A stretch of 64,000 bases of DNA from Flavimaricola sp. Its GTDB lineage: Bacteria; Pseudomonadota; Alphaproteobacteria; Rhodobacterales; Rhodobacteraceae. Positions 7,795-16,437 of the stretch are shown here, in pieces. The position numbers and the translations under genes were made by a program. Each line of letters begins with the position of its first letter. Positions within the stretch are counted from its first letter, which is position 1. The notes beneath the pieces were generated by a model, which saw only the letters and a program-made list of their open reading frames with translations, was not told the DNA's origin and made no database searches. The stretch lies in contig JAHDDU010000003.1 in the NCBI GenBank assembly GCA_020629175.1, forward strand, positions 67,221-131,220, written 5' to 3'.

Positions 7795-9036
7795 ATGACG
7801 ACTGCATCCACCCAACGCAATATCACGCTCTATCCGTGGTACCGCTTTTTCAGCGGTTTGGTCTTTTGGCAGTCGATCTGGTTTCTCTACATCCAGAATG
7901 AGCTATCGGCCGCTGCGGCCATCACACTTTACGCGATTTACGATGTGTCAACGACCCTGCTGGAAGTGCCCTCGGGCTATATGTCCGATCGCCTGGGCCG
8001 CAAGCGGACGTTGATTGTCGCAGCCGTTGCAGGTGCGATTGCCGCTGGACTGCAAGCCTATGGCGGCAGCTTTGCGATCTTTGCTTTGGGCAACATCTGC
8101 CTTGGGGTGAGCGCGGCTTTTGTTTCGGGCACCGACAGCGCGCTGCTGTATGAGAGCCTCAATGCCGAGAACCGTGAGACAGAGGTCGAGCGGTGCGAGC
8201 TGGTATCCTGGCGCGTCAGCTTTACCGCGCTCGCGCTCTCCGCTGTTTTGGGTGGTGCGATGTGGTCAATCGACCCGCGCGTGCCCTATATCGCCACAAC
8301 TCTCGCCTTCGCGGCCTGCCTCGTGATCGCGATGCTCTTCGCGGAACCCCCTCATAGCGATACGTCCGCTGCAGATACCTTGGACCCGTACCATCTCAAG
8401 CCCCTGTGGACGGCGCTGAAAACACCCGTTCTGATGTGGCTCTTCGTGCTCAGCCTGCTGATGTATATGTTCAGCCATATTCCATTTGTCTTTGGCCAGC
8501 CTTTCATCCTCGAAGCGCTTGATGGAGTGGGGCTGGCGGCGGATGCCCCCCTGATCAGTGGCGCAGTGACTGCAACGATGATGGGGCTTTCGGTGGTCGT
8601 CTCACTCTTTGCATTGCAGGTACGGTACCGGATTGGCCTTGCTGCAATCCTACTTCTCGCACTTGGCATTCAAGTTGCCTTGATTTCTGCCTTGGCCGTC
8701 AGCAACGCGATCTGGGTCATCGCACTTTTGTTCCTGCGCATGGTGCCAAACTCGCTTTCCGGGCCGTTTATTCTGGCCCGCATTCAACCTATGCTGCCTG
8801 ACGATACCCGGGCGACCTATCTCTCCCTCCAGAGCCTTGCCGGGCGCGCCCTGTTTGCCGCCACCTTGTTTGTATCCGCCACAGCCTCTAGCAACGCTGG
8901 GCTGATGCCCTATTCTGAAATTCAGTCCATTCTGGTTTGGTACGTTGTCGCAGGCGTCATCGCTTTGGCAGGGCTCGCTCTTTGGGCACGAAAACTGCCA
9001 TTGGAGGCGCCACAGTCTACGGCAAGATCCAAATAG
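7795..9036 (+). CDS. MFS transporter
   Basis: A 413-residue membrane protein with about twelve hydrophobic segments. The MFS signature in the first cytoplasmic loop is clear (EVPSGYMSDRLGRKRTL). The N-terminus WYRFFSGLVFWQSIWFLYIQ and the ALLYESL segment resemble the DHA1-like group often annotated as drug or sugar efflux, but the substrate is unknown. It is not a close copy of the MFS protein at 5.3 kb. Its last 20 bp overlap the opposed L,D-transpeptidase gene. Confidence 0.85.
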   Translation: MTTASTQRNITLYPWYRFFSGLVFWQSIWFLYIQNELSAAAAITLYAIYDVSTTLLEVPSGYMSDRLGRKRTLIVAAVAGAIAAGLQAYGGSFAIFALGNICLGVSAAFVSGTDSALLYESLNAENRETEVERCELVSWRVSFTALALSAVLGGAMWSIDPRVPYIATTLAFAACLVIAMLFAEPPHSDTSAADTLDPYHLKPLWTALKTPVLMWLFVLSLLMYMFSHIPFVFGQPFILEALDGVGLAADAPLISGAVTATMMGLSVVVSLFALQVRYRIGLAAILLLALGIQVALISALAVSNAIWVIALLFLRMVPNSLSGPFILARIQPMLPDDTRATYLSLQSLAGRALFAATLFVSATASSNAGLMPYSEIQSILVWYVVAGVIALAGLALWARKLPLEAPQSTARSK

Positions 9037-9517
9037 GCGTGCCCGTCCCCACCATCGAGTAGATGACCTCCATCTCGCTGTTGGACACAGCGATGCACCC
9101 AACAGTCCAATCGCGCTGGCCGATGCGGAATTTTGGCGTCCCGTGGATGAAGATATCTCCCCCCGGTGGCAGGCCCAAGGCGGCAGCGGCGGCCCGGTCG
9201 GCCGCATTGGGATAAGAAATCCCCAAGGACAGGTGAAATTCAGACTCTGGATTGCGCCGATCGATCCAATACTGGCCCTCGGGCGTGCGCCCGTCACCTT
9301 CGACCCGTTTGTGGCCATCGGGCGCAAAGCCAAGCTCGAACGCGTAAGAGGCAAGCACCGTGTCATTGTGGAGCAGATGCATCAGGCGTTGACCCTTGTA
9401 GGCAACAATCGATGTTACCTGTGGGCCATCATAGTCCAGAAACCGCGGGCCGCTGGCACAGGCGGCAAGAACCGAGACTCCGCCCAGCAATATCGCCCGC
9501 CTTGAATGCAATTCCAT
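9017..9517 (-). CDS. L,D-transpeptidase-family lipoprotein (YafK-like)
   Basis: A 166-residue protein. The signal SRRAILLGGVSVLAAC has a twin-arginine-like start and a lipobox (LAAC). The catalytic part has FIHGTPKFR followed by RDWTVGCIAVSN, the W-T-x-G-C form seen in the YafK/DpaA branch, whose E. coli member cleaves Braun lipoprotein from peptidoglycan. Whether this protein makes or breaks crosslinks cannot be told from sequence. It overlaps the MFS gene by 20 bp at the 3' ends. The 72 bp upstream hold no recognisable feature. Confidence 0.87.
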   Translation of the reverse strand: MELHSRRAILLGGVSVLAACASGPRFLDYDGPQVTSIVAYKGQRLMHLLHNDTVLASYAFELGFAPDGHKRVEGDGRTPEGQYWIDRRNPESEFHLSLGISYPNAADRAAAAALGLPPGGDIFIHGTPKFRIGQRDWTVGCIAVSNSEMEVIYSMVGTGTPIWILP

Positions 9518-9589
9518 GCCCGCTGCCTCGTATCATCTTTTGCGCAGAGCTTACTCTATGCCGCCCTCCAAAAACAACGCGGCAGTTCA

Positions 9590-10795
9590 TCACGCCATGG
9601 TGAACGTAGCCACCAGTTCAACGTGGGCCGACCAGCGAAACTGATCAACAACCAGCGGCGGCTGCATAACATACCCCGCTTGAACGAGGCGTTGCGCATC
9701 GCGCGCAAAGGTGACCGGGTTGCAGGACACCATCGCGACAACCGGAACCTTTGCTTCAGCGATTTCGGCAATCTGCGCGTCAGCGCCCGCGCGCGGCGGG
9801 TCGATGACCGCCGCATCAAACCTGCTCAATTCATCCGGCAGCAAGGGTCTGCGAAAGAGGTCTCGCGCCTCGACTGACACTGATTTGAGCCCTTGCGCCT
9901 TGCGCCACCCAGCAGACAGCGCCTCGACCATCTCAGTCTCACCCTCTACCGCATGGACTTCGGCCTGCGCCGCCAAAGGCAAGCTAAAGGTCCCGCAACC
10001 TGAGAAGAGATCGACGATGCGCCGGGCGCCGGTTGTGGCCTGCACCACAGCGCGGGTCAGCACCTCTTGGCCATGATCGGTTGCCTGTAGAAACGCACCC
10101 GGTGGCGGCACGACCCGCGCGGTGCCAAACTGCTGGGCAGGAGGATCGATGGTCGCAATAGGCTCATCGCCGTAGGACAGCCGGGCGAGGTCATGTTCCT
10201 GCGCCAATTGCGCGAGATCAATGCGCAGATCACCGGTCAGCGGTGCGTCGTAGTCAACACGCACATCCGGCCCAGCGAGACTCTGCGTCACGGTAATCCG
10301 AGCCTCGCCTGTGCGCGAACACACCCGCCGCACCAATGCCTCCGCCGCTGGCAGCGCCGCCATCAAAGCGGGCGTCAGCAATTGACACTCTGGTGTCGGC
10401 ACCAAAAGATCTGATCCACGGGCATGAAACCCAATCTGGGCGCCCTTTTTGGTGCGACGACCACTCCAGCTCGCCCGCCTGCGAGACTGGGCGGGGGAGG
10501 TTTCGATCCCTGCAAGGTCCGCTGGCAGGCCCTGCGCGGTCAGAGCCTTGCGAACGATGTCCATCTTCCACTTGGCCACAAAATCGTCCGCCGCGTGCTG
10601 CACCGCACATCCGCCGCAGGTTTTGTAGTGTCTACACGGCGCGGCAACCCTATTCACCGACGGCGTGTCGATCCGGACTGTGCCATCCTCGGCCAGCGTG
10701 ATGTCTTCCCCCGGCAGGACCCTCGGCACGAGCGTGCCATCCGTCGCCCGGCCCATCCCCGTGTGGGTCAGTGCCTCAATCCGCATGGAGGTCAC
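9590..10795 (-). CDS. TrmA/RlmD-family RNA m5U methyltransferase
   Basis: A 401-residue enzyme. It has the iron-sulfur cysteines CRHYKTCGGC at about residues 54-63 with a fourth at PECQLL, SAM motif I (VDLFSGCGTFSLPLA) and the PPRAG motif. The catalytic cysteine is in MVSCNPVTFARD near residue 358. These define the 23S rRNA m5U methyltransferase group (RlmC/RlmD). Which uridine is modified cannot be assigned. The N-terminal TRAM domain is reduced. The start overlaps the ABC exporter stop by 4 nt (ATGA), so it is the third gene of that transcript. Confidence 0.88.
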   Translation of the reverse strand: MTSMRIEALTHTGMGRATDGTLVPRVLPGEDITLAEDGTVRIDTPSVNRVAAPCRHYKTCGGCAVQHAADDFVAKWKMDIVRKALTAQGLPADLAGIETSPAQSRRRASWSGRRTKKGAQIGFHARGSDLLVPTPECQLLTPALMAALPAAEALVRRVCSRTGEARITVTQSLAGPDVRVDYDAPLTGDLRIDLAQLAQEHDLARLSYGDEPIATIDPPAQQFGTARVVPPPGAFLQATDHGQEVLTRAVVQATTGARRIVDLFSGCGTFSLPLAAQAEVHAVEGETEMVEALSAGWRKAQGLKSVSVEARDLFRRPLLPDELSRFDAAVIDPPRAGADAQIAEIAEAKVPVVAMVSCNPVTFARDAQRLVQAGYVMQPPLVVDQFRWSAHVELVATFTMA

Positions 10796-12660
10796 TCAGC
10801 GGCGTCTTGGGTCCGCAGAAATCCGCCAGACTGGCGGTTCCAATAGCGGGCGTAGAGCCCGCCGCGTGCCAACAGATCATCATGGGTTCCCTCTTCGACG
10901 ATGCGTCCGGCATCCAGTACGATGATCCGGTCCATGCTGGCAATCGTCGACAGGCGGTGCGCGATGGCGATCACGGTTTTGCCCTCCATCGCATGGGTGA
11001 GTGCCGACTGGATTGACGCTTCTACTTCGGAATCAAGCGCGGAGGTCGCTTCGTCCAAAACCAGAATTGGCGCATCCTTTAACAACGCGCGCGCAAGGGC
11101 GATCCGCTGCCGCTGGCCGCCTGACAATTTAACGCCGCGCTCGCCCAGAAAGGCGTCATACCCTTCACGCCCTTTGAAATCGCGGAGGTCCTGAATGAAC
11201 CCGTGCGCCTCGGCCTTTTGGGATGCCGCGAGCAACTCTTCTTCAGTGGCGTCTGGTCGGCCATAGGCGATGTTGTCACGCGCGGTCCGGTTGAACATCG
11301 CCGTTTCCTGACTGACCATGCCAATATGGCTGCGCAGACTCTCTTGTGTGACAGCACTGATGTCGGTGCCATCCACCAGAATGCGACCGGATTCAGTGTC
11401 GTAGAGTCGCAACAGCAGGTTCACAAAGGTCGACTTTCCCGCGCCAGAGGCCCCGACGATCCCCAGCTTCTCTCCCGGGCTGATCGAAAGGTTGATCCGG
11501 TCAATGCCTCCGGTGTCCCCGCCGTAGGCAAAGCTTACGTCCTGAAACTCAATCCCGGCCTGGGTGATTTGCAAATCCTGCGCACCGGTTTGATCGACCA
11601 GCGTATGACGCGGTGTGAGCGTGCGCATGCCGTCTTCAACTTCGCCCACGTGGCTGTAGATCGCCATGAGCGTGAAACTGACCCAGCCCGTCATTTGGGC
11701 CAAGCGAATGGACACAGCACCCACAGCGGCAATCTCGCCCGGAGTGACAATCGCTGGACCAATCCAAAGCGCAGAGCCGACCATCCCAAGCGGCAGCAAC
11801 CCTGCCAAAAAGATCAGACCGATGCGGAAGGCTGTCGAGACCTCCCCAAAGGAAAGGGCCGTGCCACGCAGCTCTTCCATGGCACTCAACGCGGCGCGAT
11901 CTTCATGCGCAGAACCTGCAAAGAGCTTGACCGTTTTGACATTGGTGATCGTATCCACAACTTGCCCTGACACCATCGCCTGCGCCGCCGCGCGTCTCTT
12001 GGATCGGGACCTGATCTTGGGCAGCATCAACCGCAAAAACAGCGCATAGGTCGCAAACCACGCAAGCAAGACTGCAAGCAACCGGCCATCAATGGCCAAC
12101 AGCATGATCCCAGCACCAGCAACCGAGGCGAGCGCAAAGGCAATCGCGTTCACCGTTTCGACAACGATTTCGGTCATGGACCGCGCCGTCTGCATCTGCT
12201 TTTGCGCGATACGCCCGGCAAAATCGTTGTCAAAGAATGTGACCGCTTGTCCCATCGTCCAGCGGTGCATCCGCGCCAATACCAGCTTGAACACATTCGG
12301 CCCAATCATCACCGATTGTGTGATTGCCAGGGCCCCGAAAAGGAACGGCCGAAAGACCAAGAGAAGGAAAATCGCCGCGATAAACACCCCGGAATTGTCG
12401 GCCCAAACGCCGATCTCTGCTGGTGCGGATGCAGCATCTACAACGCGGCCCAAAAGATACATCGCCAGAACCTCAGTCATGCCTGAGATGATCGAGACGA
12501 AGGTCGCCCCAAGGATGACAATCCAGCTTCCCGTCAGGCACCAGCGCATGAACGCGAAGAGATCGGTCGGGGGTGGTCCTTCGGCCGCGCGTTCGGTGTC
12601 GATCTGATTGCCTGCAAGCTGGATCAGATCGACAAATCTGCTGCGGAGTGTGTTGATCAT
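10792..12660 (-). CDS. ABC exporter half-transporter, subunit 2
   Basis: A 622-residue fused permease-ATPase. Six transmembrane segments occupy roughly residues 45-335. The ATPase follows with Walker A GASGAGKST, Q-loop, signature LSGGQRQR, Walker B ILVLDEATSALD with the catalytic glutamate, and a switch histidine in AIAHRLS. It pairs with the homologous upstream gene (4-nt overlap), giving a probable heterodimer of the MdlAB/MsbA class. Both nucleotide-binding domains look canonical, unlike exporters with one degenerate site. The substrate is unknown. Confidence 0.9.
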   Translation of the reverse strand: MINTLRSRFVDLIQLAGNQIDTERAAEGPPPTDLFAFMRWCLTGSWIVILGATFVSIISGMTEVLAMYLLGRVVDAASAPAEIGVWADNSGVFIAAIFLLLVFRPFLFGALAITQSVMIGPNVFKLVLARMHRWTMGQAVTFFDNDFAGRIAQKQMQTARSMTEIVVETVNAIAFALASVAGAGIMLLAIDGRLLAVLLAWFATYALFLRLMLPKIRSRSKRRAAAQAMVSGQVVDTITNVKTVKLFAGSAHEDRAALSAMEELRGTALSFGEVSTAFRIGLIFLAGLLPLGMVGSALWIGPAIVTPGEIAAVGAVSIRLAQMTGWVSFTLMAIYSHVGEVEDGMRTLTPRHTLVDQTGAQDLQITQAGIEFQDVSFAYGGDTGGIDRINLSISPGEKLGIVGASGAGKSTFVNLLLRLYDTESGRILVDGTDISAVTQESLRSHIGMVSQETAMFNRTARDNIAYGRPDATEEELLAASQKAEAHGFIQDLRDFKGREGYDAFLGERGVKLSGGQRQRIALARALLKDAPILVLDEATSALDSEVEASIQSALTHAMEGKTVIAIAHRLSTIASMDRIIVLDAGRIVEEGTHDDLLARGGLYARYWNRQSGGFLRTQDAAE

Positions 12661-14504
12661 TCTTTGGTCTCCGCGTCTGCCCCGATGAAGCCGCCTGATT
12701 GGCGCTGCCAGTATTTTGCATAGGTGCCGTCCTGCGCCAAAAGCGCGTCGTGACTCCCATCCTCGATGATCCGGCCGTTCTCCATCACGATGATCCTGTC
12801 CATCGCGGCAATCGTCGACAGACGGTGCGCAATGGCGATCACGGTTTTGCCCTGCATCATTCCGTAGAGCGTTGATTGAATGGCCGCCTCTACTTCTGAA
12901 TCTAGGGCGGAGGTTGCCTCATCCAAGAGGAGGATCGGCGCATCTTTCAGGATAACCCGCGCGAGCGAGATCCGCTGACGTTGGCCGCCCGAAAGCTTGA
13001 CGCCCCGCTCACCCACTTTGGCCGCATAGCCAGCATTACCTTCGCTGTCTTCCAGCGTCTGGATGAAGTCATGCGCCTCGGCCTTTTTGGCAGCGTCGAT
13101 CATCTCAGCCTCAGATGCTGCGGGATTGCCGTACAGGATATTCTCGCGCACGGACCTGTGCAGAAGGGCGGAGTCCTGTTGCACCATCCCGATATGCCGC
13201 CGCAGGCTGTCCTGCGTGAGGGTTGAGATTGGCTGGCCATCAATCGCAATCGTCCCCGTCTCGGCATCGTAGAACCGCAAGAGCAGTTTGACCAAAGTCG
13301 ATTTCCCCGCACCCGAGGCGCCGATTAGCCCGACCTTTTGGCCCGCCGGAATAGTTAGATTGATGTTATCCAAACCACCCGTGGTTTTCCCATAGTGATG
13401 GCTCAGGCCAGAAATGGCGACCTCACCCCTGTTGAACACCAATGGCTTTGCTGCCTTGGCATCAACCAAGGCAATCGGTTGAGCGATGGTTTGCATGCCT
13501 TCAGAGACGACGCCAAGCTCGCGGAAGAAGTTGGTGATCGCCCACATGATCCAGCCCGACATCGCATTGAGCCGCAGCGCCATGGCAGAGGCCGCCGCCA
13601 CAATACCCACAGTGGCTGTGGCGCCCATCCACAGATAAATGGCCAGACCGACCACACCGACGATAAGCACGCCGTTCAACAACATCAGGCCAATATCCAT
13701 GATCGTGTACAACCGCATCTCGACCTGAAAGGTCTTGCGCGAGTGCTCAATCGCCTCTTTGGCATAGTCCAATTCCCGGTCGTGATGCGCAAACATCTTG
13801 ACCGAGTGGATGTTGGTATAGCTGTCAACGACCCGCCCCGTCACTGCAGAACGCGCGTCGGACGCGGCCTCTGACGCGGGACCAATCCGTTTGACGACCC
13901 AGCGCAGCAGAACCAGATACGGCACCAGCCAGATCAGCATCGGAATGATCAGCCGCGGGTCCGCATCACCCAACAGGATCGCCGCGCCGATCAGATAGGC
14001 GATGGCAAAGGTGATCGCGTCAAAAAGCTGGAACACAACTTCACCGGCGGCAGGCGGTGTTTGCATAATCCGGTTCGCGATGCGGCCAGCAAAGTCATTC
14101 TCAAACCAGCCGACGGACTGACGCAACACGTGCTTGTGCGCGCGCCACCGGACCAGCGTTCCAAAGTTTGGCAGGATCGAATTGTTGAGCCAGGCCACCT
14201 GAACGATGTGCAAAAGCGGCCTAAGCGTCAGGATGAACACACCAACAAGAATGATCTCGAGCCCGTGACGAGCCCAAACATCATCCGGCTCCCCACTTCC
14301 CAACAAGTCCACCAATCGGCCCATATAAAAGATCAGCCAAACTTCCAGCGCCGCAATCACGACAGACCCAATGGCCGTCAGAATGAAAACGGTTTTGAAC
14401 GGCTGCGAAAACCCGAGAAGGAACGGCAACAGCTTGTTAGGCGGCGTGTCCGTCTCTGCATAATCGCAAAAAGGGTCAATTAAATTTTCGAAGTACCGAA
14501 ACAT
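12657..14504 (-). CDS. ABC exporter half-transporter, subunit 1
   Basis: A 615-residue fused permease-ATPase homologous to the next gene. Transmembrane segments lie between about residues 35 and 325. The ATPase has Walker A GASGAGKST, signature LSGGQRQR, Walker B ILLLDEATSALD and the H-loop AIAHRLS. The start ATG at 14504 has a Shine-Dalgarno GGAG at 14515-14512 that is part of a small hairpin (14510-14526). Upstream lies an unusual structured leader with a possible leader peptide, so translation of this operon may be conditionally controlled. Confidence 0.9.
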   Translation of the reverse strand: MFRYFENLIDPFCDYAETDTPPNKLLPFLLGFSQPFKTVFILTAIGSVVIAALEVWLIFYMGRLVDLLGSGEPDDVWARHGLEIILVGVFILTLRPLLHIVQVAWLNNSILPNFGTLVRWRAHKHVLRQSVGWFENDFAGRIANRIMQTPPAAGEVVFQLFDAITFAIAYLIGAAILLGDADPRLIIPMLIWLVPYLVLLRWVVKRIGPASEAASDARSAVTGRVVDSYTNIHSVKMFAHHDRELDYAKEAIEHSRKTFQVEMRLYTIMDIGLMLLNGVLIVGVVGLAIYLWMGATATVGIVAAASAMALRLNAMSGWIMWAITNFFRELGVVSEGMQTIAQPIALVDAKAAKPLVFNRGEVAISGLSHHYGKTTGGLDNINLTIPAGQKVGLIGASGAGKSTLVKLLLRFYDAETGTIAIDGQPISTLTQDSLRRHIGMVQQDSALLHRSVRENILYGNPAASEAEMIDAAKKAEAHDFIQTLEDSEGNAGYAAKVGERGVKLSGGQRQRISLARVILKDAPILLLDEATSALDSEVEAAIQSTLYGMMQGKTVIAIAHRLSTIAAMDRIIVMENGRIIEDGSHDALLAQDGTYAKYWQRQSGGFIGADAETKE

Positions 14505-14509
14505 AGGAG

Positions 14510-14526
14510 CGCTCCATCATTGAGCG
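14510..14526 (-). promoter_or_regulatory. Shine-Dalgarno-masking hairpin of ABC exporter
   Basis: On the minus strand CGCTC (14526-14522), a 7-nt loop, then GAGCG (14514-14510). The second arm contains GAG of the GGAG ribosome binding site, 7 nt before the exporter ATG. GGAGCGCTCC at 14506-14515 is also a perfect palindrome. The position suits an expression platform that hides the ribosome binding site. No function is proven. Confidence 0.45.
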
Positions 14527-14532
14527 TAAAAT

Positions 14533-14621
14533 CGTAGTAGGTGAATTGGCGGTTGACGGACCGCCCAACGGGATCGGTCTGGTCAAACCAGCGGTCGATG
14601 CATCCCGTTATTCATACTACG
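14533..14621 (-). promoter_or_regulatory. structured leader RNA (three-way junction), unidentified
   Basis: Between cca and the exporter genes, 89 nt fold almost completely. P1 pairs 14533-14539 with 14615-14621 and 14542-14546 with 14610-14614 (12 bp, GG bulge). P2 pairs 14548-14553 with 14560-14565 (6-nt loop). P3 pairs 14567-14574 with 14602-14609 (8 bp) and contains an inner 5-bp hairpin 14579-14583/14587-14591. The orientation is inferred from the downstream exporter gene. I could not match it to TPP, SAM, c-di-GMP, fluoride or guanidine riboswitches. Confidence 0.5.
14583..14615 (-). CDS. possible leader peptide MNNGMHRPLV
   Basis: A 10-codon ORF (ATG at 14615, TGA ending at 14583) preceded at 7 nt by a strong ribosome binding site AAGAGGAG (14630-14623). 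It overlaps the 5' arms of P1 and P3 of the structured leader, so translation would unfold that structure. It lies between the cca stop (14666) and the exporter start (14504). This is the layout of a translation-attenuation leader peptide, but its short length makes chance possible. Confidence 0.35.
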   Translation of the reverse strand: MNNGMHRPLV

Positions 14622-14665
14622 TCTCCTCTTTGGTGAGGGTTTGGTACCGCAACCTTTCCGGGAAG

Positions 14666-15841
14666 TCACCCCCCCAATTCACCGGCAGCGGCAATCAACT
14701 CGTCTTTGCTTTGTGTAAATCCGCTGTCGATCCATCGGCGCTGCAAATCCGCCAGCTTGGCTCCTAGGAGGGGACCCTGAAATTCGGGCATAAGGTCTTT
14801 GGCCTTCAAAGGAAAAACCTGCTCGGCCCCGAAATGAGCCTCAACCTGTTCGGCTTCGGTCATCTCACGCTCAAACGCGGCAGCGCGCAAAGCGAGGATG
14901 TCGATGGCCGTCTCTGCCCCTTCACGGTAGCCCAACTCACCAGCTGTACTTGTGGCATGCAGGCCAGAGACAAGCCGCGTCAGCTGGCCCGCATCCGCCT
15001 TACTCAGCCGCAGGGTATCAGCCACATCTTCGCCGCCAAGTGCTGCCAAGCGGCGGAGCCAGGACGGCGCAAGACGTGCTGCTTCCTCAACATGGATGAG
15101 GACGGTCAAAAGTCCCGTACCTGCGCCGGGCATCAACCGCATCAATACACCGCTCGCCCGCATCGCGGCCAAGGCTGGCGCCGGATCAGCCACGTCCAGC
15201 AGCTTGCGCATCTCTGCGCCAATCCGTTCAGCCGACACATGATCCAATCCGTCGAGCCCCGCCGCACAGGCGGCGAGCCCTTCTGGATCAATCCCACCTT
15301 CTGGATCACCGCATTGGGCATAAAATCGAAAGAACCGAAGAATGCGCAAATAATCTTCGGCTATGCGTTCCTCAGGATCGCCAATGAAACGCACCCGACG
15401 GGCGCGCAAATCATCCAGCCCGCCCAGAGGGTCCACGACTGTCCCGTCCGGCAAGGCGTAGAGCGCATTCATCGTCAGATCACGGCGCGCCGCATCCACG
15501 GCAATGTCATCCGAAAACGCCACGGTCGCGCGTCGTCCATCTGTCGAGACATCCTCGCGCAAGGTCGTGATCTCAAACGGCTTGCCACCCGCAACGAGCG
15601 TGACCGTTCCGTGATCAATGCCCGTAGGCACGCTTTTCACTCCGGCGTTTGCGGCAAGTTCAATAACGGCCTCTGGCCTCGCGTTTGTCGTGATATCAAT
15701 GTCTGCGCTGTCCCTGCTCATCAGAGCATCGCGCACACAACCGCCTACAAACCAGGCGTTGTACCCCGCATCTGTCAGCAACGTGCAAACGGCCTGCGTG
15801 TCAGGATCCATCAGCCAATCAGCGGTCAATGTGGTGTTCAA
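14666..15841 (-). CDS. cca: CCA tRNA nucleotidyltransferase
   Basis: A class II polymerase-beta-type enzyme of 391 residues that adds or repairs the tRNA 3' CCA end. The active-site region WFVGGCVRDALMSRDSADIDI carries the G-G-x-V-R-D and D-x-D motifs. The RRDLTMNALYA and EDYLRILRFFRF segments are also present. The start is placed at TTG 15841, with GAGAGGA about 8 nt upstream and a TTGA overlap with the Nudix stop. ATG 15811 is the alternative. A longer frame reaching 15946 lies within the Nudix gene and is rejected. Confidence 0.93.
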   Translation of the reverse strand: MNTTLTADWLMDPDTQAVCTLLTDAGYNAWFVGGCVRDALMSRDSADIDITTNARPEAVIELAANAGVKSVPTGIDHGTVTLVAGGKPFEITTLREDVSTDGRRATVAFSDDIAVDAARRDLTMNALYALPDGTVVDPLGGLDDLRARRVRFIGDPEERIAEDYLRILRFFRFYAQCGDPEGGIDPEGLAACAAGLDGLDHVSAERIGAEMRKLLDVADPAPALAAMRASGVLMRLMPGAGTGLLTVLIHVEEAARLAPSWLRRLAALGGEDVADTLRLSKADAGQLTRLVSGLHATSTAGELGYREGAETAIDILALRAAAFEREMTEAEQVEAHFGAEQVFPLKAKDLMPEFQGPLLGAKLADLQRRWIDSGFTQSKDELIAAAGELGG

Positions 15842-16437
15842 GAGGCAATCCTCTCTGCCAAAGTGTGCAAAATACGAGCGGTGGCCCCCCAAATATAATA
15901 GGGCCCATAAGGAACAGTGTAATACATCCGGCGGTGCCCTTGCCACATCCGTCCTTCGGTCTGGAAATTTCGCAAGTCGAGGACATGCGACAGAGGCACC
16001 CTAAAAATCTCTGAAACTTCGCCCGGCTCCGGCCGCTCATCAAAAGGTGCGGCCACCAAACCCACGGTCGAGACAACGGAATAGCGAGTGACCGTCTCAT
16101 GCGGCTCAAGGGTGCCAATGACCTTCACCTGCGAACGCGGCAGGCCGATCTCTTCCTCCGCTTCGCGCAAGGCTGCGTCAGTTGCATCCGTGTCGCCATC
16201 ATCCTGCCGGCCTCCGGGAAAGGCGATCTGGCCGGGATGATTTTTGAGATGCGCCGCACGTTTCGTCAGGATGATCTGCGGCTCATCCTGCGTGACATCA
16301 ACGGCCATCAAGACGCCAGCGGGCTTGAGCACTCGGCCCGCGGGCAATGCGATATCTGGATGAAGATCAAAATCAGAAGACCCCGGACCTGCTTGGTCCA
16401 GGGCCCTCTGCAAGTCTGACAGATCAGGCTTCGGCAT
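15838..16437 (-). CDS. Nudix hydrolase, CoA-pyrophosphatase-like
   Basis: A 199-residue protein from ATG 16437 (14-nt overlap with hslO). In-frame starts at 16446 and 16497 are further inside hslO. A Nudix box begins at FPGGRQDDGD and ends REAEEEIGL. The preceding LTKRAAHLKNHPGQIAFPGG stretch is the signature of the CoA diphosphatase subgroup (NudL/YeaB). It would hydrolyse CoA or related diphosphates. It sits between hslO and cca in one leftward transcript with overlapping ends. Confidence 0.88.
   Translation of the reverse strand: MPKPDLSDLQRALDQAGPGSSDFDLHPDIALPAGRVLKPAGVLMAVDVTQDEPQIILTKRAAHLKNHPGQIAFPGGRQDDGDTDATDAALREAEEEIGLPRSQVKVIGTLEPHETVTRYSVVSTVGLVAAPFDERPEPGEVSEIFRVPLSHVLDLRNFQTEGRMWQGHRRMYYTVPYGPYYIWGATARILHTLAERIAS

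Follow-up and report, generated by a model that had tools for sequence, protein, structure and literature searches.

A conserved uORF-containing leader RNA, probably a translational attenuator, before an ABC exporter operon in Rhodobacteraceae

How is an ABC exporter operon controlled when the gap in front of it holds both a short open reading frame and a compact RNA fold? The question arises from Flavimaricola sp. contig JAHDDU010000003.1, of which a stretch of 64,000 nucleotides was analyzed (the window, to which all coordinates refer). The element is on the minus strand, between cca and an operon of two ABC exporter genes. The regulated gene (12657..14504, minus strand) encodes the first exporter half, of 615 aa with ABC_membrane and ABC_tran domains, and overlaps by 4 bases the gene of the second half (10792..12660, minus strand; 622 aa) in the same operon. 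ABCB-type exporters are the closest solved structures. The upstream neighbor, cca (14666..15946, minus strand; CCA tRNA nucleotidyltransferase, start codon uncertain), ends 50 nt before the leader in the window and about 60 nt before it in general. The genes that follow the exporter pair on the minus strand (9017-10795) encode a TrmA/RlmD-like RNA uracil methyltransferase and a YkuD L,D-transpeptidase domain protein. The exporter neighborhood is one of RNA-modification genes, with the methyltransferase downstream and cca upstream.

All parts of the leader are on the minus strand. A strong Shine-Dalgarno (SD) sequence, GAGGAG (14623..14628), precedes an upstream open reading frame (uORF; 14583..14615), which was read directly as ten codons plus TGA (ATG AAT AAC GGG ATG CAT CGA CCG CTG GTT TGA, 14615-14583) and encodes MNNGMHRPLV. 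The exporter SD, GGAG (14512..14515), was also read directly. The segment 14621-14533 (89 nt) has a predicted folding energy of -35.3 kcal/mol, a stability reached by none of 200 dinucleotide shuffles (z -3.6); with flanking sequence the z-score was -2.7 to -2.9. The fold is a three-way junction with almost no unpaired bases. In helix P1 (12 bp with a 2-nt bulge at 14540-14541), CGTAGTATGAAT (14610..14621; fold, swap test), which includes the uORF start codon, pairs with ATTCACCTACTACG (14533..14546; fold, pair counts). P2 joins AACGGGA (14603..14609, uORF codons 3-5; fold, swap test) to TCCCGTT (14567..14573; fold, pair counts) over 7 bp and has a 3-bp extension (14596-14598 with 14574-14576; fold). 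P3 is a hairpin of 6 bp (GGCGGT/ACCGCC, 14548..14565; fold, pair counts). A 5-bp stop-codon hairpin (CTGGT TTG ACCAG, 14579..14591; fold, weak alignment support) has its loop and 3' arm straddled by the uORF TGA (14583-14585).

Two further helices reach the start site of the exporter. Hairpin P4 (CGCTC/GAGCG, 14510..14526, arms 14526-14522 and 14514-14510; fold, pair counts) lies over the exporter SD, as it does in most copies of the leader. In the minimum free energy (MFE) fold, helix P0 pairs AGGAG of the uORF SD (14627-14623, the 5' strand) with CTCCT (14505..14509; MFE fold, swap test, pair counts), which abuts the exporter ATG. With P0 added to P1 and P4, a single domain has the two SDs and the uORF start codon within its paired strands. 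P0 had been missed in the first-pass annotation of this DNA. The features which that annotation did describe were found in place: an 89-nt three-way fold with a junction almost free of unpaired bases (its 8-bp helix being the 7 bp plus 3 bp of P2), a 10-codon frame with a strong ribosome binding site, and a hairpin hiding the exporter GGAG at 14515-14512. A reading of the structure on the plus strand was rejected; the genes are on the minus strand, and the plus-strand fold reached only z -1.95. In the window, GGAGCGCTCC (14506-14515) is a perfect palindrome that contains the exporter SD, a local SD trap without counterpart in most relatives.

A known riboswitch or other RNA family was considered and ruled out by empty Rfam scans. 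Rfam 15 gave no match in the window at the gathering score, none in the region at E values up to 10, and none in 20 relatives at E values up to 1, in agreement with the first reading of the DNA, which could match no riboswitch class. No earlier description of the leader was found in the open-access papers searched.

The leader is a conserved cis-regulatory RNA of Rhodobacteraceae, and its layout is not due to chance, because it is conserved across the family. An ortholog of the exporter is present in 317 of 395 Rhodobacteraceae genomes, and upstream DNA was fetched for 131 exporter loci. An ATG uORF with an SD at about -114 was found at 75 of these 131 loci, against 3.3 +/- 2.1 expected from dinucleotide shuffles. 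Its length was 8 codons in 21 loci, 9 in 4, 10 in 38, 11 in 11 and 12 in one. The upstream neighbor was cca in 71/75 loci with the uORF and in 32/56 loci without it; in the latter, the cca gap is mostly too short to fit the element.

Plain MAFFT plus RNAalifold, applied to 20 diverse leaders, misaligned the 3' half, and the first covariance model (R1) was therefore seeded from three well-aligned relatives and searched against both strands of 267 kb. It returned 38 matches, all of them exporter leaders: the window copy (66 bits, E 1e-15) and 37 others. All 38 were among the loci independently found to have the uORF. A second model (R2), built from 33 copies and run on the 395 family genomes, matched 95 of them exactly once each; this number is a lower bound because the strict filters lose weak copies. 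All 40 R2 matches for which the context was fetched lay directly before the exporter, 38 of them with cca behind. Across the class (385 genomes) R2 gave three matches, all within Rhodobacteraceae. A DNA pattern scan for the SD plus ATGTAYYACGGGATYTGG, with one genome per species, found 106 stretches, and among the 80 listed, all 77 with enough DNA for the test had the exporter 109-141 nt downstream. The leader was found in no other genomic context in the 395 family genomes, the 385 class genomes or the pattern-scan matches listed. Its carriers include species of Ruegeria, Phaeobacter, Leisingera and Tritonibacter.

In a tree of 30 exporters, both halves defined by the midpoint root contain the leader, and five changes are needed, a distribution that fits an old element lost several times. 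The leader is not essential to the exporter, because it is missing from 56/131 loci and appears to have been lost repeatedly. Ten loci with no detected uORF and a cca gap over 95 nt were folded, and none was a clear case of a leader-like RNA without the uORF. One locus (L097) has a cca-exporter gap of 171 nt and a TACGAA/TTTCGTA outer helix, with no SD-bearing uORF, and is possibly a decaying remnant of the leader. At another (L144, G204:C11) the exporter is only 47% identical to that of the window, yet cca still lies upstream and the leader RNA is retained (69.9 bits); the leader thus outlasts strong divergence or replacement of the exporter.

Selection on the RNA structure was assessed with two tests. 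In the alignment-free strand-swap test, the duplex energy of the 5' and 3' strands of each of 74 leaders was compared with that obtained with strands of other species. Swapping strands between species weakened P0 (z -6.0), P1 (z -9.3) and P2 (z -6.6), with 0/5000 permutations in each case, and three control pairings gave z-scores of +2.9, +0.2 and -0.9. In the pair-count test, which used the 33-copy model alignment, double changes were present in 34 of 39 pairs, and covariation was 0.432 versus 0.167 in shuffled and 0.041-0.079 in slid controls. The pair-count test is biased in favor of the model, having used an alignment fitted to that model; the swap test is free of this. Double changes were counted in 6/6 pairs of P0, 10/11 model pairs of P1, 6/6 pairs of P3 and 4/5 pairs of P4, a helix kept in 92% of cells. 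P4 gained no support in the swap test (z +2.0), either because its sequence is near-constant or because the segments were badly cut, and support for P4 is weaker than for P0, P1 and P2. As a fixed helix the stop-codon hairpin is weakly supported (paired in 55% of cells). Two properties of uORF attenuators are present in the family: a covarying structure in which uORF sequence occludes the main ribosome binding site (P0, P1 and P2), and a short ORF with its own ribosome binding site that is conserved in relatives (75/131 loci). The first-pass annotation had proposed a covariance model from homologous leaders between cca and the exporter, and had named as its own refutation either non-conservation of stems or short ORF, or an Rfam hit that explains the element. 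Such a model recovers the window copy, its helices covary, stems and ORF are both conserved, and Rfam gives no hit, so neither refutation succeeds.

A compact three-way junction, strong covariation and sequestered SDs would also suit a metabolite-binding riboswitch, in which a small molecule, perhaps the exporter substrate, binds the junction and thereby shuts or exposes the start sites of uORF and exporter, with a secondary role for the uORF. This reading, one of two offered at the outset, found no support in the alignment and is quite improbable. The 33 aligned copies have no conserved unpaired core outside the uORF; what is conserved are the start codons, the SDs, the stop codon and the helix strands. 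P3 varies widely in length and sequence, the RNA and the uORF are always found together, no Rfam riboswitch matches, and a single operon is the sole context found.

The leader is more plausibly, with a probability of about 0.6, a uORF-controlled translational attenuator of the ABC exporter operon. Joint conservation, covariation and the sole context lend good support to the other original proposal, that ribosomes on the leader ORF control the exporter through a fold that hides its ribosome binding site. A conserved, covarying RNA domain closes around a uORF of 8-12 codons, and its outer helices join the uORF SD (P0) and the uORF AUG (P1) to the final ~45 nt ahead of the exporter ATG. The proposed attenuator would work as follows. 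While the P1 3' strand is still missing from the nascent RNA, the uORF ribosome binding site is predicted to be cheap to open; once that strand has appeared, the start sites of uORF and exporter are both occluded in the model. With fast translation, the first ribosome would clear the uORF, the RNA would shut and little exporter would be made. A ribosome that halts at the uORF start or within its first few codons would cover the 5' strands of P0 and P1, leaving the 3' strands free and the exporter translated. Such halting may be caused by stress at initiation or early elongation, for instance by some ribosome-targeting drugs. The leader is filed as a uORF attenuator by its layout, from which we infer a drug or stress response.

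The opening costs behind this scheme come from a masking model that uses energies only and leaves out sterics, kinetics and pseudoknots. In this model, the exporter start site had a median opening cost of 10.4 kcal/mol. A ribosome on the uORF start codon lowered this to 7.7 kcal/mol, like deletion of the uORF (7.6 kcal/mol), whereas one on the stop codon left it at 10.1 kcal/mol. Relief of more than 3 kcal/mol with a ribosome at the uORF start was predicted for 28 of 75 copies. For the window copy no relief was predicted (9.5 kcal/mol, and 10.6 with a ribosome at the uORF start), probably because the exporter SD stays paired locally, within P4 and the GGAGCGCTCC palindrome. For the uORF ribosome binding site, the modeled opening cost was about 7 kcal/mol before synthesis of the P1 3' strand and 12-14 kcal/mol after it; in the window the values were 3.7-5.8 and 11.8-13.7 kcal/mol. 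Transcription attenuation of the BmrB type was rejected; 14480-14900 holds no terminator-like site, and no U-run follows P4.

The leader might alternatively be a static or general device without a specific inducer, which sets a low basal exporter level or couples the exporter to ribosome supply, RNA decay or read-through from cca. No promoter consensus was found in 14480-14900, and read-through from cca, whose stop lies so close before the leader, is possible since no consensus promoter or terminator was found near the leader. Repeated loss of the leader would also suit such a device. A weak ribosome binding site alone would give a low level, however, and an ORF kept with its own ribosome binding site in a covarying fold across the family implies a conditional role; we give the static device little credence.

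If uORF ribosomes control the exporter, the signal may be the position of the ribosome or the peptide that it makes. The start, SD, short length and stop of the uORF are kept while the peptide falls into classes that differ between subclades: MY[YHRC]GIW.. in most copies, M.RDRI.ISFA, MIYRI.., MDNRI.. and MNNGM.. in the window. Much of this pattern arises because codons 3-5 form the P2 5' strand. An amino-acid-starvation attenuator (trp or cysS type) was rejected, as the copies share no codon run for a single amino acid, and Trp starvation is not a general signal because Trp is absent from the other classes. One copy of the GIW class stands before an exporter 72% identical to that of the window in a record titled Nocardioides marinus, an actinobacterium (L251, JAHVJD010000003.1); probably the species label or record is wrong, or the assembly is contaminated.

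The GIW class gives some ground for nascent-peptide arrest, in which a leader peptide (Y-x-G-I/L-W in this largest class) would respond within the exit tunnel to a drug or metabolite by stalling the ribosome in mid-uORF, as ErmCL does. In 42 GIW-class copies the Trp codon, the sixth, is invariant. Codons 2 and 5 show few changes, most of them at the third position, although the two codons lie largely outside helices (P unpaired up to 0.75), a pattern suggestive of constraint on the peptide; most copies also have 8, 10 or 11 codons. Against arrest, a constraint on the RNA could also account for the codon pattern, and positions 1-2 of codon 3 change freely whereas its third base is fixed by P2. 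Other subclades, the window's included, carry unrelated peptides on the same RNA, and the energy model predicts little freeing of the exporter start by ribosomes beyond codon 2-3. No arrest peptide common to all subclades, of the ErmC type, was found, and a nascent-chain signal shared by all of them is unlikely. Of the stalling at the peptide suggested in the first-pass annotation, the apparent constraint on some GIW-class codons stands, whereas the peptide itself differs between subclades; arrest is an unlikely explanation of the leader as a whole.

A more specific form of the attenuator can be put forward tentatively, at somewhat less than even odds. The leader may be a peptide-independent sensor of stalled initiation, in which a single closed domain joins the ribosome binding site of the uORF to the exporter start region and the first ribosome on the nascent RNA is thus the signal, the RNA being conserved while the peptide drifts. 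Conservation of the RNA can be separated from that of the peptide, and ribosome position versus nascent peptide as the signal is therefore directly testable.

The leader is a structured, translated control element outside Rfam 15, spread through Rhodobacteraceae, including species that can be grown in the laboratory. As modeled, it would be a case outside Firmicutes of a uORF that controls a pair of ABC exporter genes. Should drugs induce it, abundant marine bacteria would have in it an inbuilt response to antibiotics; if it is a peptide-independent sensor, it would serve one bacterial family as a switch by which translation stress in general turns on an exporter, possibly of drugs.

Among known systems, ErmCL/ermC-type translation attenuators combine a leader peptide with hairpins that hide the ribosome binding site of a resistance gene. 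These attenuators (reviewed in PMC12121999 and PMC11264731) resemble the exporter leader in both respects; here, in contrast, the peptide is not common to the subclades and the gene is an exporter, not a methyltransferase. The uORFC-8-2 motif before cysS in Rhodobacterales (PMC8632094), with tandem Cys codons and a terminator with a terminal U-run, is likewise a uORF-containing RNA motif confined to the same order, but precedes another gene, and the exporter leader has neither tandem Cys codons nor a U-run terminator. In the odc1 (uORF-25-1) motif of Alphaproteobacteria (PMC8632094), a stem sequesters the ribosome binding site along with a uORF of 11 aa; there the start codons of uORF and main gene are only two bases apart (UUG) and a pseudoknot is present, whereas in the exporter leader the two ATGs are separated by about 114 nt and each is preceded by an SD. 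BmrB of Bacillus subtilis, the 53-codon leader of the BmrC/BmrD ABC exporter, contains an intrinsic terminator and acts by transcription attenuation (PMC4191407). Like BmrB, the exporter leader places an ORF ahead of an operon of two ABC exporter genes and would use the ribosome as sensor, but it has 8-12 codons, no terminator-like site and structure over the translation start. A further parallel is the toiL uORF of topAI-yjhQP in Escherichia coli, which is paired with the main ribosome binding site and on which antibiotics stall ribosomes; tetracycline stalls them at the uORF start codon, and the main ribosome binding site opens (PMC12121999). The toiL system belongs to a toxin-antitoxin gene of another bacterium and is likened here by layout, not sequence, to a leader that precedes an ABC exporter pair and has in addition a three-way junction and P0, which pairs the uORF SD with the bases before the main start codon. 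No intrinsic terminator was seen in the exporter leader, and as in toiL, a short uORF pairs with the main ribosome binding site, a ribosome at its start codon would open that site, and control would be exerted at the level of translation.
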